DNA from: an uncultured Bacilli bacterium
GTDB lineage: Bacteria; Bacillota_I; Bacilli_A; RF39; UBA660
Length of the DNA stretch: 64,000 nt
Assembly (NCBI GenBank): GCA_944329375.1
Contig: CALVIB010000002.1
Span: forward strand, 1-64,000
Reading direction: 5' to 3'
The notes beneath the pieces were generated by a model. That model was not told the DNA's origin. It saw only the letters and a program-made list of their open reading frames with translations, and ran no database searches. The position numbers and the translations under genes were made by a program. Every line of letters begins with the position of its first letter. The stretch's first letter is position 1. Shown here in pieces: positions 30,859 to 37,444 of this stretch.

Positions 30859-31780
30859 TGAACAAGAAGTAATTAAATTATTTTATAATGAAATTCAAAA
30901 GATAAAAAAGGATTTTGAGAATGTTTCTTTTGAAATTATTTTCGTTAATGATGGGTCTAAAGATAAAACACTAGATTTAATGAGAGAACTTTCTAAAAAC
31001 GATGATGTAAGATATATTTCTTTTTCTAGGAATTTTGGTAAAGAAGCAGCTATGTATGCAGGATTAGAAGCTTCTTTAGGAGATTATGTAGCTATAATGG
31101 ATGCGGACCTGCAAGATCCTCCAGCTTTATTAAAAGAGATGTATGAAATATTAAAGTCTAAAGAATATGATAGTGTGGCAACAAGAAGAGTTACTAGAAA
31201 AGGGGAGCCAGTAATTAGAAGTTTTTTTGCAAGACTTTACTATAAAATTATTAATAAAATTTCTAAAACAGAAATTGTCGATGGTGCTAGAGATTTTAGA
31301 TTAATGACAAGACAAATGGTAAATTCTGTTTTATCTTTAAAAGAATATAATAGATTTTCTAAAGGAATTTTTTCTTGGGTAGGGTATAAAACAAAATGGC
31401 TCGAGTATGAAAATGTAGAAAGAGTGGCAGGAGAGACTAAATGGTCTTTTTGGAAATTGTTTTTATACTCATTGGATAGTATTGTGGCTTTTTCTACTGT
31501 ACCACTTTCTATAGCTTCAGTTATGGGAATATTATTTTGTTTTGTATCTTTCATAATAATTATTTTTATAATTGTTAGAACTTTAATGTTTGGTGACCCT
31601 ACAAGTGGCTGGCCTAGTATGGTTTGTATTATGTTTTTTATAGGTGGGGTTCAGCTTTTGTGTTTAGGGGTTATGGGACAATATTTATCAAAAACATATT
31701 TAGAGGTTAAAAAAAGACCAATTTATATTGTGTCTGAAACTGAGAAAGATAGGACTGATCAAAATGAAAAAATATATTAA
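30824..31780 (+). CDS. GtrB/DPM1-like polyprenyl-phosphate glycosyltransferase
   Basis: About 318 residues. N-terminal GT2 domain: VVPCYNEQEVI, EIIFVNDGSKDKT and MDADLQDPP (DxD metal site). Two C-terminal transmembrane helices (about 235-260 and 270-295), the layout of GtrB/YkoT-type enzymes that load a hexose from a nucleotide sugar onto polyprenyl phosphate at the inner membrane face. The ATG at 30824 is chosen from AGAGGTGA upstream. The product would feed membrane (GT-C) transferases encoded downstream. The exact sugar cannot be read. Confidence 0.87.
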   Translation: MKKISLVVPCYNEQEVIKLFYNEIQKIKKDFENVSFEIIFVNDGSKDKTLDLMRELSKNDDVRYISFSRNFGKEAAMYAGLEASLGDYVAIMDADLQDPPALLKEMYEILKSKEYDSVATRRVTRKGEPVIRSFFARLYYKIINKISKTEIVDGARDFRLMTRQMVNSVLSLKEYNRFSKGIFSWVGYKTKWLEYENVERVAGETKWSFWKLFLYSLDSIVAFSTVPLSIASVMGILFCFVSFIIIIFIIVRTLMFGDPTSGWPSMVCIMFFIGGVQLLCLGVMGQYLSKTYLEVKKRPIYIVSETEKDRTDQNEKIY

Positions 31781-32639
31781 ATTGTTACGTATAAATCATT
31801 ATATAAAAAATTTTTTGATTTTCCTTCCACTTATTTTTAGTGGCAATTTCTTTAACACAAATTTATTTATAATCACAATTGTTGAATTTGTATCTTTTTC
31901 ATTAGTGGCATCATCCGTTTATGTTTTTAATGATATCCAAGATGTTGATAAAGATAGACTGCACCCTGTTAAAAAAAGTAGACCTATTGCTAGTGGAGAA
32001 ATCAGTTTAAAAAAAGCATATTTTGTTTTTATTATATTGTTGATATTAAGTTTAATTTTGCAAATAATTTTATATAAAAATGCACAATTCCAATTTCAGA
32101 CTCTTTTAGTAACTACTTCATGTTTACTTTTATATTTGTTTATAAATATAATTTATAGCATATGGGCAAAGCATATACCTATTTTTGATATAGTTATTTT
32201 AGCTTTAGGCTTTATAATTAGAGTTTATTATGGTGGTTATGCAATATCAATTCCTATTTCTAATTGGCTTTATTTAACTATATTATCATTTTCATTTTAC
32301 TTAGTTATTGGGAAGCGTAGAGGAGAATATATTAAAAGCGTGGAAACGAGACCTGTTTTAAAACATTATAGTAAAGAATTTTTAGATAAGTTAATGTATG
32401 TATTTTTATCTTTAACTCTTGTATTTTATTCTTTGTGGTGTGTTTTAGGTGTTGATAAAGCGATTAGTGATTCAATTTTGTTTAGTATTATAATTGTTAT
32501 ATTTATTGTTTTAAAATATAGTTTAATTGTGGAAGGTGATTCTTTAGCTGATCCTGTAGATGTGTTAACTCATGATAAAACTTTAATGTTTGGTTTGCTT
32601 GTTTATATATTATATGTTGGAGGGGTTTTATATGCATAA
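31764..32639 (+). CDS. UbiA-family prenyltransferase, resembling polyprenyl-phosphate phosphoribosyltransferase
   Basis: About 291 residues and eight or nine helices. The first UbiA aspartate motif is NDIQDVDKDRLHP, followed by KKSRPIASGEIS. This HP-x-K-x-S/R-RPIA-x-G-x-I pattern is that of the branch that includes decaprenyl-phosphate 5-phosphoribosyltransferase (Rv3806c of mycobacteria), rather than quinone or heme enzymes. The second motif is less clear. It overlaps the upstream GtrB-like gene by 17 bases and the HAD-GT gene by 8 bases. It probably makes a lipid-linked phosphopentose; that is inference from the family branch. Confidence 0.75.
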   Translation: MKKYIKLLRINHYIKNFLIFLPLIFSGNFFNTNLFIITIVEFVSFSLVASSVYVFNDIQDVDKDRLHPVKKSRPIASGEISLKKAYFVFIILLILSLILQIILYKNAQFQFQTLLVTTSCLLLYLFINIIYSIWAKHIPIFDIVILALGFIIRVYYGGYAISIPISNWLYLTILSFSFYLVIGKRRGEYIKSVETRPVLKHYSKEFLDKLMYVFLSLTLVFYSLWCVLGVDKAISDSILFSIIIVIFIVLKYSLIVEGDSLADPVDVLTHDKTLMFGLLVYILYVGGVLYA

Positions 32640-34689
32640 AATATTTGTATATAATTTTGATGGTACTATATATAAAGGAAATAGTAGTGTTGATTTTCTT
32701 TTGTTTTATTTAAAAAGAAGATTTAAAAATATAATATATTTACCTTTAATATTATTCTTTTCTTTGCTTTATGTGCTGAAAATCATAAGTGCTGAAAAAT
32801 ATAAAGAGAAAACCTTTTCTTGTTTAAAGAAAGAAAAAAATATTAAGAAAATTGTTAATGAATTTTGGGAAAGATATAATAAAAAAATTAATACATTCAT
32901 TTTAAATGATTTTTATGATGAAAAAAAAGACATATATGTTGTAAGTTCATCATTTGATTTTATAATTGATGAATACTTTAAAAATTTTTCAAATATTACT
33001 TTAATTTGTACAAAATATGATATAAAAGCAAAACGAATTATTGGGAAAGTGTGCCAAGGTAAAGAAAAATTAAAAAAATTGGTGGCATTAAATGAGAAAA
33101 ATAACATTGAAGAGTTTTATTCTAATTCGTTGAATGATATAAATATAATCCAAAAATCAAAAAAAGCTTTTTGGATTAAGGAAAACAAAAAACATTTGTG
33201 GACTAATAAAGATATTTACGATAAAAAAAATAAAAAGGTAGCATTTATTTTGTTTTTGTTGTTTTTTATTTTTTATTTAATTATTGGTATATTTGTATCT
33301 TATAGCTATGATTTTAAAGATAACTATAATTTGCTATTTGATTCTGATACTTCTAGAGTCATTGGCGATTTTTCAAATATTCTTGGTAATCATTATCGTA
33401 TTAGAGTTCATCCATTGTATATTATTTTAGTTCAACCAATCATTTTACTTTTAAATGGAGTTACTATGGATAGTATGTTATCATTGATAATTTTTTCTTC
33501 ATTTGTTACAGCTACTTCTGTTGGAATTTTATATTTAATTGGATCAATGTTTACTGATAATTCCAAGATTAAAATAATTGTTAGTTTATTTTTTGGCTTT
33601 GCTTTTACTAACTTTATTTTTACAATTGGAATTGAAGTTTATAATATAGCAATGTTGTTTTTGATGTTGTTATGGTATCATACAATAAAACTTTTTAAAA
33701 AAGAAGTAATTACTAAAAAAGATAATTTGATTTTACTTTTATTGGGTGTATCTTCTATTGCTTTTACTGTAACAAATTATTTTATATTTTTAATTATTTC
33801 ATTGATTTTATTATTATCCAAAAAAATCAAATTTACTAAATTATTAAAAATAAATGTTTTAGTAATTGTTTTAACTGTTATTTTGTCTTTTTTTCAAAAT
33901 ATTGTATGGAACAATACAACTATAATATATGAATTTAATGACAATTTTTCTGAAGAACAAAATTACATTAATTTTGATTTAAATTTTAATAAAGTAAAAG
34001 AAGTAATAAAGAATGGTTATATGAATTCACTGGTTTCTTCAGATATTACTCTAGAATATCATAAAAATGATGGTAACGTATTAACCTTTGGTAAAACAAG
34101 TGTAATAACAATTGTTGTATTTTGTATTTTATATGGTATTATCTTGTATTTTTTAATTAAAAACTTTAAAAAAAATATTTGGCTTAATATAGGGATTATT
34201 TTATCTCTATGCTTTAATACATGTTTGCACTTATTTTATGGAACTAATACCTTTTTATACTCTTGTCATTTTCTATATTTGCCATTTCTTTTATTTTTTA
34301 TCAATTATAATGATTTTAAGGGTAAAAAAATTCAAACAATTTTATTTTCAGTATTAATAATAATTTTTGCATGTGAATTTATAATAAATTTATATCATTT
34401 AAAGGATGTAATATCATATGTTGGAAGTCTTTTGCCTCATAATTATTTTAGAATTAACTTAAATTCTTTTGAATTATTAATTTTGATTTTTATGTTAGTT
34501 TTAATTGGTGTTATTCTTATTTATTTAATTTATAAAAATATTAGGAAAATAAAGAAAGATAATCTTTTTTACCCAATTTTAGCTTGTGTTACGTGCTTAA
34601 TGCTATTGCAATGTATTTTTATTGCTATTCAAACAGCACCACATTATGGAAAATTTCTTGGTATAACACTAAGCAAGGTAAATGAGTAG
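32632..34689 (+). CDS. Fusion of a HAD phosphatase-like domain with a GT-C-type membrane glycosyltransferase
   Basis: About 685 residues. Residues 1-200 form a SerB-like HAD domain: KIFVYNFDGT, YVVSSSFDF, KGKVCQGKEKL-like lysine block (…VCQGKEKLKKL), and FYSNSLNDINI. The nucleophile position of DxDGT is Asn (residue 8) and the first motif-IV Asp is also Asn, so phosphatase activity is unlikely. Residues about 203-680 are a ten- to twelve-helix membrane domain with an acidic motif in the first loop (FDSDTSR) and HYRIRVHP, like GT39/GT-C enzymes using polyprenyl-phosphate sugars. The start is chosen from GGAGGGG upstream. Beside UbiA and GtrB it should transfer a lipid-linked sugar outside the cell. 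Confidence 0.7.
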   Translation: MHKIFVYNFDGTIYKGNSSVDFLLFYLKRRFKNIIYLPLILFFSLLYVLKIISAEKYKEKTFSCLKKEKNIKKIVNEFWERYNKKINTFILNDFYDEKKDIYVVSSSFDFIIDEYFKNFSNITLICTKYDIKAKRIIGKVCQGKEKLKKLVALNEKNNIEEFYSNSLNDINIIQKSKKAFWIKENKKHLWTNKDIYDKKNKKVAFILFLLFFIFYLIIGIFVSYSYDFKDNYNLLFDSDTSRVIGDFSNILGNHYRIRVHPLYIILVQPIILLLNGVTMDSMLSLIIFSSFVTATSVGILYLIGSMFTDNSKIKIIVSLFFGFAFTNFIFTIGIEVYNIAMLFLMLLWYHTIKLFKKEVITKKDNLILLLLGVSSIAFTVTNYFIFLIISLILLLSKKIKFTKLLKINVLVIVLTVILSFFQNIVWNNTTIIYEFNDNFSEEQNYINFDLNFNKVKEVIKNGYMNSLVSSDITLEYHKNDGNVLTFGKTSVITIVVFCILYGIILYFLIKNFKKNIWLNIGIILSLCFNTCLHLFYGTNTFLYSCHFLYLPFLLFFINYNDFKGKKIQTILFSVLIIIFACEFIINLYHLKDVISYVGSLLPHNYFRINLNSFELLILIFMLVLIGVILIYLIYKNIRKIKKDNLFYPILACVTCLMLLQCIFIAIQTAPHYGKFLGITLSKVNE

Positions 34690-34698
34690 GAGAGTATT

Positions 34699-35865
34699 AT
34701 GAGTACTAAAAATATAGATAAAAACTTAGAAACGAATTTTAAACAGGAATATAATTCATATCTAAATTATTTAAAAGAATATAATGATTTTGCAGGTAAT
34801 TATCCAGTTGAATTTGTAGATATTGGTGAGAGTGATTATTATTTTTTTGGAATGGGCAATAGAAAAAAGCTTTTATATAAAGACGGTGAGATTATTGATA
34901 TATTCAATAATAAAATTTTGTTTAAATGGAATGTTAAAGATTATTTAATTATTCCAAATGAATATAGTGTTATATTATATACTAAAAATGGTAAAAACAT
35001 AAAAATTTATGAAGATAAACATGGCGTATTTATCGAGGAGAATGGAGAAAAAAGAATCATAGAAGGGACTGACTTTTATATTAATTTAGCAGATTTTAAA
35101 AATCAAAAATATCAAAATATGAAGAAAGTTTTATATAATGAAATCTTATTCAATATTAAAGATTCAACACCTTATCCAAATATATTAGTTTATGAAAAAG
35201 CCTGGTATAGAGATGGTGCGATGGTTGCTATGGTGTTAAAACATACAGATAATGTAGAGCTAATAGAGGAATGGATTTCATCAATTAATTCTATTTATGA
35301 TATGCAAAATGATGGCACAAAAGAACCAGATAATTTAGGAGAATTATTATATATTATTTCTGTATCTGAAAACTCACATAAAGATTTAATTCAAAAGATT
35401 ATAATTGAAGCTGAGAAAATTGCCGACAATAATGCTGATGGTTATTATTTAGAAGGAATGACCGATGGAGCCTCACATCCAATATATCAAACCAAATGGT
35501 ATAATTTTGGGTTAAAATCTCTAAACGTTAAAAATAGCTTAAGCATTGTTGATAACAAAGATAATTACGATGCTCTTACTTGGTGGAATGGTAAAAATTC
35601 TAATACTTATTTTCCAGAATTACTTTCTGCAAATTATCCTTATTTATCTTTGGCACAATATCATAAATCAGGAAAAGGGAAAATTTATTTAAATAAAAAT
35701 ATATATCCACTTTCATATGAAAAACAAGGTAGTGAAGCAAATTATGAAAAAATGGAAATTTTAAACAATTATTATGTAACTAATAAAATATCTCCATTAC
35801 ATACGTGGAGTGCTTCGGAAATGTTGTTGTTTTTGTTAGATGAAACTGGTAATTTTAGGGAATAA
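34699..35865 (+). CDS. Putative cytosolic glycosidase-like protein of the (alpha/alpha)6 type
   Basis: A 388-residue protein without signal peptide or transmembrane helices. Residues 1-140 look like a beta-rich domain. The rest is helical with KAWYRDGAMVAMVLKHT, similar to the WxRDxA segment of six-hairpin glycosidases such as GH15, and a final HTWSASEMLLFLLDE. I do not recognise the exact family. Its place between two membrane glycosyltransferase genes (nine bases after the HAD-GT gene) suggests it edits, trims or modifies the glycan or its lipid-linked precursor. Export cannot be excluded but is not indicated. Confidence 0.5.
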   Translation: MSTKNIDKNLETNFKQEYNSYLNYLKEYNDFAGNYPVEFVDIGESDYYFFGMGNRKKLLYKDGEIIDIFNNKILFKWNVKDYLIIPNEYSVILYTKNGKNIKIYEDKHGVFIEENGEKRIIEGTDFYINLADFKNQKYQNMKKVLYNEILFNIKDSTPYPNILVYEKAWYRDGAMVAMVLKHTDNVELIEEWISSINSIYDMQNDGTKEPDNLGELLYIISVSENSHKDLIQKIIIEAEKIADNNADGYYLEGMTDGASHPIYQTKWYNFGLKSLNVKNSLSIVDNKDNYDALTWWNGKNSNTYFPELLSANYPYLSLAQYHKSGKGKIYLNKNIYPLSYEKQGSEANYEKMEILNNYYVTNKISPLHTWSASEMLLFLLDETGNFRE

Positions 35866-35953: not shown

Positions 35954-37444
35954 ATGAGTGAAAAATTAAAGAATCTATTTAATACAAAAATTTCATCAAA
36001 AACTTTGTATAAAATTGCTTTAGTATTATTTATTATCACATTAATACCAATGTTAGTTATTTCTTTTTACAATTTTCCTAGTGCAGATGATTATGGTTAT
36101 GCAGTTAATATTCATAATGCATGGATGAATGGTGATATTTTAGGTATGATAGGAGCAGTTTTTAATACAGTTTTATATTTTTATTTTAATTGGCAAGGAA
36201 CATTTACAGCTATTTCAATTATGTCTTTGCAGCCATCTATTTTTGGAGTAGAATTTTATTTTATTTCAACATTTGTTTTACTTGGTTTCTTTATTTGGGG
36301 AACGTTTACTTTATGTAAAACCGTTTGCAATGATTTTTTACAATTAGATAAATATATTTATAAGATAATTGCTATTTTAATTTCAACCATTTGTATTCAA
36401 AGAATACCTTCATTGGTAGAAGGATTTTATTGGTGGAATGGTTCAATATATTACACATTTTTCTTTTCATTAACCTTGTTTCAAATAAGTCATATTTTAA
36501 AATATTTTAAATATGGAAAGAAAAAAAATTATATAGCAGCAATTTTACTTACATTTATGCTTGGCGGCAGTAACCTTGTTACCGCTTCAAATCAAGTGAT
36601 TGTAATGACCATATTATTAATAGGATTATTTATAAAAAAACATCCAAAAAGATTTCCTATGCTTGGAATTAACTTAGTTTTATATATAACAGCAGCTTTA
36701 AATATGTTGGCTCCTGGTAATGCTCTTAGACAAGCTGCAAATAATAAATCAGATTTAATTACAGCAATTATAGATTCTGTTGAAGCGTTTACCCAAAATA
36801 TTACTACTTGGTGGGATATATACACTGTATTTTATGTTTTAGCAATTATTCTTCTTTTATATAAATCGTATGAGAAAACAAATTTTTCTTTTAAATATCC
36901 ATTTTTAGTGACTATATTTATATTTGGAATTTTATCAGCTCTTTATACTCCTCCATTATATGCGATGTCTTCAACTGGGCCTGGGCGTTTATTAAACATT
37001 GTTTATTATATTCATATTTGGGGATTAATTATTTTAATGTATTATTGGATAGGATATTTTAGAACAAAAATCATATCTAATAAATCGATGAAACAAGCAG
37101 ATAAAATTTTTGTTAAAAAAATTTATGAAAATTGTTTTATTTTCTTAATTGGATTTGGTCTTATAAATTTAATGCTTATTATAGGATATCGTGGTAATCT
37201 TTCATCATATATTACATTTAAATCTTTGGTAAATGGTGAGGCTGCTACTTATAAAAAAGATATGTTAGAGAGATATGATTTGTATGAAAACCCAGACACT
37301 GATGTTGTTAAAGCAAAACCTTTATCAGTAAGACCACGTGCTCTTTATTTTCAAGATATTACACCAGATAAACACAATTGGATTAATAAAGATATAAGTA
37401 AATATTTTCATAAAAAATATATTTATATAGAATTAGAGGGATAA
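35954..37444 (+). CDS. DUF6056-like polytopic membrane protein
   Basis: A 496-residue protein with about ten to eleven helices. The first outer loop carries FPSADDYGYAVNIHNAWM and NWQGTFTA, and later EGFYWWNGSIYYT, the pattern of DUF6056-type proteins: an acidic DDY in the first loop and aromatic residues near the substrate cavity, like GT-C glycosyltransferases. Catalytic function is inferred from the shape. It has AAGGAGAG before the ATG, a private promoter, and precedes a second GtrB-like gene by three bases, so it may use that enzyme's lipid-linked sugar. Confidence 0.68.
   Translation: MSEKLKNLFNTKISSKTLYKIALVLFIITLIPMLVISFYNFPSADDYGYAVNIHNAWMNGDILGMIGAVFNTVLYFYFNWQGTFTAISIMSLQPSIFGVEFYFISTFVLLGFFIWGTFTLCKTVCNDFLQLDKYIYKIIAILISTICIQRIPSLVEGFYWWNGSIYYTFFFSLTLFQISHILKYFKYGKKKNYIAAILLTFMLGGSNLVTASNQVIVMTILLIGLFIKKHPKRFPMLGINLVLYITAALNMLAPGNALRQAANNKSDLITAIIDSVEAFTQNITTWWDIYTVFYVLAIILLLYKSYEKTNFSFKYPFLVTIFIFGILSALYTPPLYAMSSTGPGRLLNIVYYIHIWGLIILMYYWIGYFRTKIISNKSMKQADKIFVKKIYENCFIFLIGFGLINLMLIIGYRGNLSSYITFKSLVNGEAATYKKDMLERYDLYENPDTDVVKAKPLSVRPRALYFQDITPDKHNWINKDISKYFHKKYIYIELEG

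Follow-up and report, generated by a model that had tools for sequence, protein, structure and literature searches.

It seems that the HAD-family phosphatase domain at the N-terminus of P0001, a 685-aa protein encoded at 32632-34689 (+ strand) of the window (i.e. the whole stretch of 64,000 nucleotides that was analysed), is an eroding relic: a redundant polyprenyl-phosphoribose 5'-phosphatase (PRP) domain that was fused to a GT-C glycosyltransferase, lost its catalysis, and is now held in place by its fusion to a transferase that is still needed. The probability of this reading is estimated at about two in three.

The reading frame of P0001, which is open throughout, runs from MHKIFVYNFDGT via VVSSS, GKEKL and YSNSLND into a multi-helix membrane half. 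Residues 1-190 (32632..33201, +) were assigned as an N-terminal HAD-IB (PRP-like) domain from PF12710, motif comparison and the folded model. The match to PF12710 (the Pfam HAD family) covers residues 6-171 (1.8e-10, 42 bits versus a cut-off of 27) and, being above the curated cut-off and combined with the HAD fold, places the domain within the HAD superfamily; for the narrower TIGR01490 (HAD-SF-IB-hyp1) the score of 42.6 bits stays well below the cut-off of 98.3. The predicted model of the entire protein has a mean pLDDT of 89 and a pTM of 0.82, and its HAD part is confident as well (block mean pLDDT about 81-97), with an input alignment that was dominated by intact relatives. Residues 1-198 of the model resemble solved HAD structures, both 3fvv_A (Z 19.4 over 195 residues) and SerB-type phosphoserine phosphatases (Z 14-16). 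A sequence search of the PDB with the HAD profile gave no match at E 0.01, and a search of a genome-contig collection, with P0001 as well as with the HAD part alone, returned no relatives.

The four HAD motifs read YNFDGT (I), VVSSS (II), GKEKL (III) and YSNSLND (IV). At three sites where relatives have Asp, P0001 has Asn, in each case encoded by AAT and a single G-to-A step away from an Asp codon: N8 (the nucleophile site), N165 (the site of the first motif-IV Asp) and N17, the third conserved Asp that has changed. D10 (codon GAT), S105, K146 and D169 are kept. An earlier note on this DNA had described a HAD domain fused to a GT-C enzyme with two Asp-to-Asn changes (NFDGT and SNS), and comparison with 92 intact relatives bears this out for N8 and N165. 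Its statement that both catalytic Asp are changed holds for the nucleophile and the first motif-IV Asp, but not for the second motif-I Asp, the general acid/base D10. With N8 and N165, the residue set of an active HAD-IB phosphatase is incomplete (despite D10, S105, K146 and D169), and the domain is predicted to be a catalytically dead phosphatase, for which the label pseudophosphatase is appropriate.

As to what the domain once did, the best reading is that of a PRP-type phosphatase, a role and a substrate suggested by homology and gene context: outside the window's genus, HADs of this kind occur in 33 of the 36 UbiA genomes of the family, often adjoining the UbiA gene. Directly upstream of P0001, and overlapping its start codon, the window encodes a UbiA-family protein of the PPPRS/DPPRS type (31764..32639, +; PF01040, 3.1e-24), with intact catalytic motifs NDIQDVDKD (NDxxDxxxD) and GKRRGE (GKRxxE) and the mycobacterial DPPR synthase as best solved relative (PDB 8j8j, 8.7e-32). 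Judged by this homology and by the motifs NDxxDxxxD and RxxE, it is a polyprenyl-phosphate phosphoribosyltransferase, and the earlier note, which took the adjacent UbiA enzyme to make a phosphorylated lipid, read the pathway context well; the NF008977 equivalog cut-off is missed (184.9 versus 234 bits).

The remainder of P0001 (33202..34689, +) is a GT-C-fold membrane glycosyltransferase half, assigned from model matches, homologues and the acidic motif FDSD. A Pfam search with residues 191-685 gave no match. The model of the membrane half matches the GT-C enzymes ALG12 (Z 23.6 over 337 residues), AftB (21.1), PglB (20.2) and ArnT (19.8), with PMT also within Z 20-24, and FDSD stands at residues 236-239, after the first transmembrane helix, so that both the membrane fold and the acidic residues in the first external loop are those of a GT-C glycosyltransferase. 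Homologues of this half were found in the genomes G143, G403, G005, G024, G029, G246, G259 and G471. In five of these (G024, G029, G005, G403 and G246) the C-terminal part of the GT-C polypeptide corresponds to what is a separate gene in the window, encoding a 388-aa protein without an assigned family (34699..35865, +), and in G259 and G471 this segment is truncated. The 388-aa protein gave no match in Pfam or NCBIfam, and its model is of low confidence (mean pLDDT 67); possibly, it is an accessory (CBM-like or glycosidase-like) domain. Further downstream, the window encodes a DUF6056 protein without a HAD (35954-37444), while in G401 UbiA is followed by a HAD-GT-C and a HAD-DUF6056 protein in tandem (L077, 6731-10971), both with intact HADs.

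The state of the HAD differs greatly among the homologues. The closest two fused orthologues (G024 and G029, 51% identical to P0001 over the full length) have N8 and N17 in common with the window, but their HAD is dead in another way, reading N-N-C at positions 8, 10 and 165 and having lost motifs II and IV. In the sister genus, G143 has a 688-aa HAD-GT-C frame with UbiA (58% identical) directly upstream; along the entire GT-C part, identity is 44-45%, and both the GT-C tree (support 100/99) and the UbiA tree (81/83) group G143 with the dead trio of the window genome, G024 and G029. The HAD of G143 nevertheless has all four Asp (YDFDGTIYNGD / IISASPE / YSDS), and that of G403, a more distant fusion of the same order, is intact too. 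G246, G259 and G471 have a homologous GT-C and, either nearby or elsewhere in the genome, an intact HAD encoded by a gene of its own. Finally, G005 has the homologous GT-C adjoining UbiA without any HAD. Its GT-C frame starts with MHK, which overlaps the stop of UbiA, and has a linker (KISHWNKEKLDDKK) that resembles the ends of fused HADs (KVTIWNDK, KKHLWTNK, KLLAWDNN), which is suggestive, and only that, of a HAD deleted from the middle. As the placement of the G005 GT-C relative to G143 is not settled, this loss may be a separate event. Since relatives with the same fusion are intact and others lack the whole domain, P0001 seems to show a pathway step partway through its decay. A side observation is that the surface-polysaccharide blocks of G024 and G029 (L026, L027) are nearly identical (UbiA 100%, GT-C 99%), whereas their unlinked HADs differ by 12%, which points to recent exchange of the locus.

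These comparisons also bear on the function that the earlier note had proposed, i.e. that the domain with the Asn pair binds the phosphorylated lipid made by UbiA without cutting it and might gate it or deliver it to the membrane half. The adjoining UbiA should indeed make such a lipid (polyprenyl-phosphate-ribose-5-phosphate), and the pocket residues D10, S105, K146 and D169 are kept in the window copy. However, the Asn pair is not conserved, with N-N-C in the two closest orthologues, N-D-N in an independent fusion (G013) and Asp in G143 (YDFDGT / YSDS), the very finding that the note had given as its refutation, and it does not appear to mark a conserved subfamily of pseudophosphatases; the homologue in G005 does without the domain altogether. 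In HAD enzymes, the nucleophile Asp and the first motif-IV Asp are both Mg2+ ligands, and losing the two should weaken phosphate binding by the domain, while the lipid would presumably need to be dephosphorylated for use anyway. A lipid-binding gate is therefore considered highly improbable. An even fainter chance is given to residual or altered catalysis with Asn at the nucleophile site (e.g. deamidation or another type of transfer): D10, which is the general acid/base, and the motifs with K and S are present, but the nucleophile and the metal-site Asp are invariant (Asp at positions 8, 10, 165 and 169 in 92 of the 92 intact-type family HADs compared), and close relatives have lost more motifs still. 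The faintest chance of all is that of an assembly or sequencing error, for although the window genome is an incomplete, metagenome-derived draft (81% complete, 48 contigs), N8 and N17 recur in two other assemblies (G024 and G029), the reading frame has no interruption, and the other parts of the operon are intact.

Loss of the catalytic residues is not restricted to the window. Among about 106 distinct HADs, all 71 standalone copies are intact, compared to about 27 of the 35 fused ones, and the dead HADs (8 rows) occur exclusively in fused proteins (Fisher p 8e-5, a value that is not corrected for kinship and overstates the case, because the rows share ancestry). With Asp invariant in intact relatives and dead HADs confined to fusions, the changes are no sampling noise, and loss of catalysis goes together with fusion. 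As dead domains were seen here only in fusions, the mere persistence of such a domain says little in favour of a new function. A HAD tree built with the motif columns removed forces at least three separate origins of deadness, namely in the window together with G024/G029, in G013, and in G410, whose origin the HAD-GtrA proteins of family f9 (long branches) may or may not share. A shared YKGN motif had suggested a single monophyletic lineage of dead HADs moving between fusions, which this motif-free tree rules out.

The dead HAD of G410 (YEFEK, YGYRK; L080, 5549-7921) is fused to a sulfatase/LtaS-like membrane protein (PF00884), and the same genome holds an intact HAD-GtrA elsewhere, beside genes that look like WecB- and TagA-type. 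In the f9 HAD-GtrA proteins (L023, L192, L220), shared by two genera of this other family, the HAD is fully dead, with FSFS or TFS as motif I and a motif IV of F/Y type, making them a candidate for a stable pseudophosphatase.

The dead HADs have evolved unusually fast. Where UbiA identity is 0.7-0.8, pairs of intact HADs keep an identity of 0.59-0.73 (n = 4); between the window genome and G024, identity is 0.72 for UbiA, 0.57 for GT-C and only 0.37 for the HAD. The dN/dS values for the same pair are 0.40 (HAD, at a dS of about 1.4), 0.29 (GT-C) and 0.15 (UbiA), with dS near saturation in all three, while the intact unlinked HADs of G024/G029 give 0.12. Still, with dN/dS below 1, the dead HAD remains under some folding constraint and is not freely decaying. 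Because of this constraint, the leading rival to erosion is a retained pseudoenzyme scaffold, in which selection keeps the folded HAD as a module for docking or folding on the cytosolic side, joining UbiA and GT-C or stabilising the GT-C N-terminus. The open HAD frame, the confidently predicted fold, the retention of D10, S105, K146 and D169 and the dN/dS of 0.40 despite lost catalysis all count against simple erosion, and a scaffold would also fit the conserved structural positions Y14, G16, D21, F78 and F110, which are kept in the dead trio, as well as the separate dead HAD-GtrA kept across two genera. On the other hand, the divergence is very fast for its age, and both G005 and many UbiA/GT-C loci in the window's genus do without a HAD, which makes a scaffold unlikely. 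A little more doubtful still is a wider reading, in which catalysis has been lost time and again, across the family, from phosphatase domains fused to lipid-sugar transferases or flippases, while the folded domains persist as selected UbiA-GT-C scaffolds; if true, a pathway enzyme would have become an assembly module on several parallel occasions.

On the erosion reading, the phosphatase step would be one that can be missed or is carried out by another enzyme. In the window's genus, the UbiA gene is present in 22 of 44 genomes, only 5 of which have any HAD of this kind (3 intact), and the UbiA motifs are preserved in nearly every complete copy, whether a HAD is present or not. A replacement phosphatase was sought through protein-family searches. 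The window genome encodes a PAP2 protein and other HADs, but PAP2 (PF01569) occurs in 37 of the 44 genus genomes irrespective of UbiA, which leaves no specific link, and it was rejected as a specific replacement. Also rejected, as belonging to an esterase-type family, was a GDSL-type membrane protein beside UbiA. This membrane protein of ~300 aa is found near UbiA in HAD-less genomes (L134, 224-1120; L142, 7511-8443; L137, 8694-9596; L150, 3687-4610); the two copies that were scanned (L134 and L142) matched GDSL lipases weakly to moderately.

Taken as erosion, the course of events may have been as follows. P0001 would act as a lipid-linked pentose transferase in a three-component pathway, in which UbiA transfers ribose-5-phosphate from PRPP to polyprenyl phosphate, the HAD (PRP) phosphatase takes off the 5'-phosphate of the polyprenyl-linked ribose, and, once the lipid is flipped, GT-C moves the sugar onto a surface glycan. 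The PRP domain would have become fused to the (cytosolic) N-terminus of GT-C, after which the nucleophile was lost (D8 to N) on the branch leading to the window genome and G024/G029. Further decay would then have differed by line, with D165 to N in the window, and D10 to N and the loss of motifs II and IV in G024/G029, while GT-C and UbiA remained intact. Such decay could be tolerated because 5'-dephosphorylation is redundant, being done by another phosphatase, which in G024/G029 may be their intact unlinked HAD, and otherwise a general phosphatase (e.g. the genus-wide PAP2 protein) or an unrelated HAD. A dead HAD on its own would just disappear, whereas the fused one carries the start of GT-C and is probably for that reason retained as a folded relic.

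With respect to known systems, the PRP-GT-C fusion extends the range of domain orders in the pentofuranose pathway; in a publication on this pathway, a word search turned up no mention of a fusion. The nearest parallel is the three-component pentofuranose system of Citrobacter youngae, with ORF15 (PRP-PPPRS) and ORF12 (GT136) (Kelly et al. 2024, PMC11127046). As in this system, a UbiA-type phosphoribosyltransferase, a HAD-family PRP and a GT-C occur together in the window, and the HAD families have the loop I Asp as nucleophile in common. However, the Citrobacter PRP is fused to UbiA and active, whereas the window domain is fused to GT-C and predicted dead, and no MATE flippase is assigned to the step at the window locus. 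In mycobacteria, the window UbiA has its counterpart in the DPPR synthase Rv3806c, and the GT-C fold resembles the arabinosyltransferases AftB and AftD (of the AftA/AftB/AftD/Emb set), while the phosphatase Rv3807c is unrelated to HAD (PMC11127046), unlike the phosphatase-type domain of the window. The latter has the fold and motif order of HAD-SF-IB-hyp1 (TIGR01490) and SerB-type phosphoserine phosphatases, but has lost the catalytic Asp of these enzymes.

The phosphatase step can be lost in both systems, presumably since other phosphatases are able to perform it. With the D18A mutation of Citrobacter ORF15, which replaces the nucleophile and leaves the PRP dead, some farnesylP-Ribf was still produced in vitro, and side chains of Ribf were still formed in vivo (PMC11127046), while Rv3807c is the sole gene not proven essential among dprE1, dprE2, ubiA, prsA and Rv3807c (PMC5964476). 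By analogy, the 5'-phosphatase step may well be dispensable or backed up elsewhere, and the window would show it while being lost, in agreement with these experiments in Citrobacter and mycobacteria.
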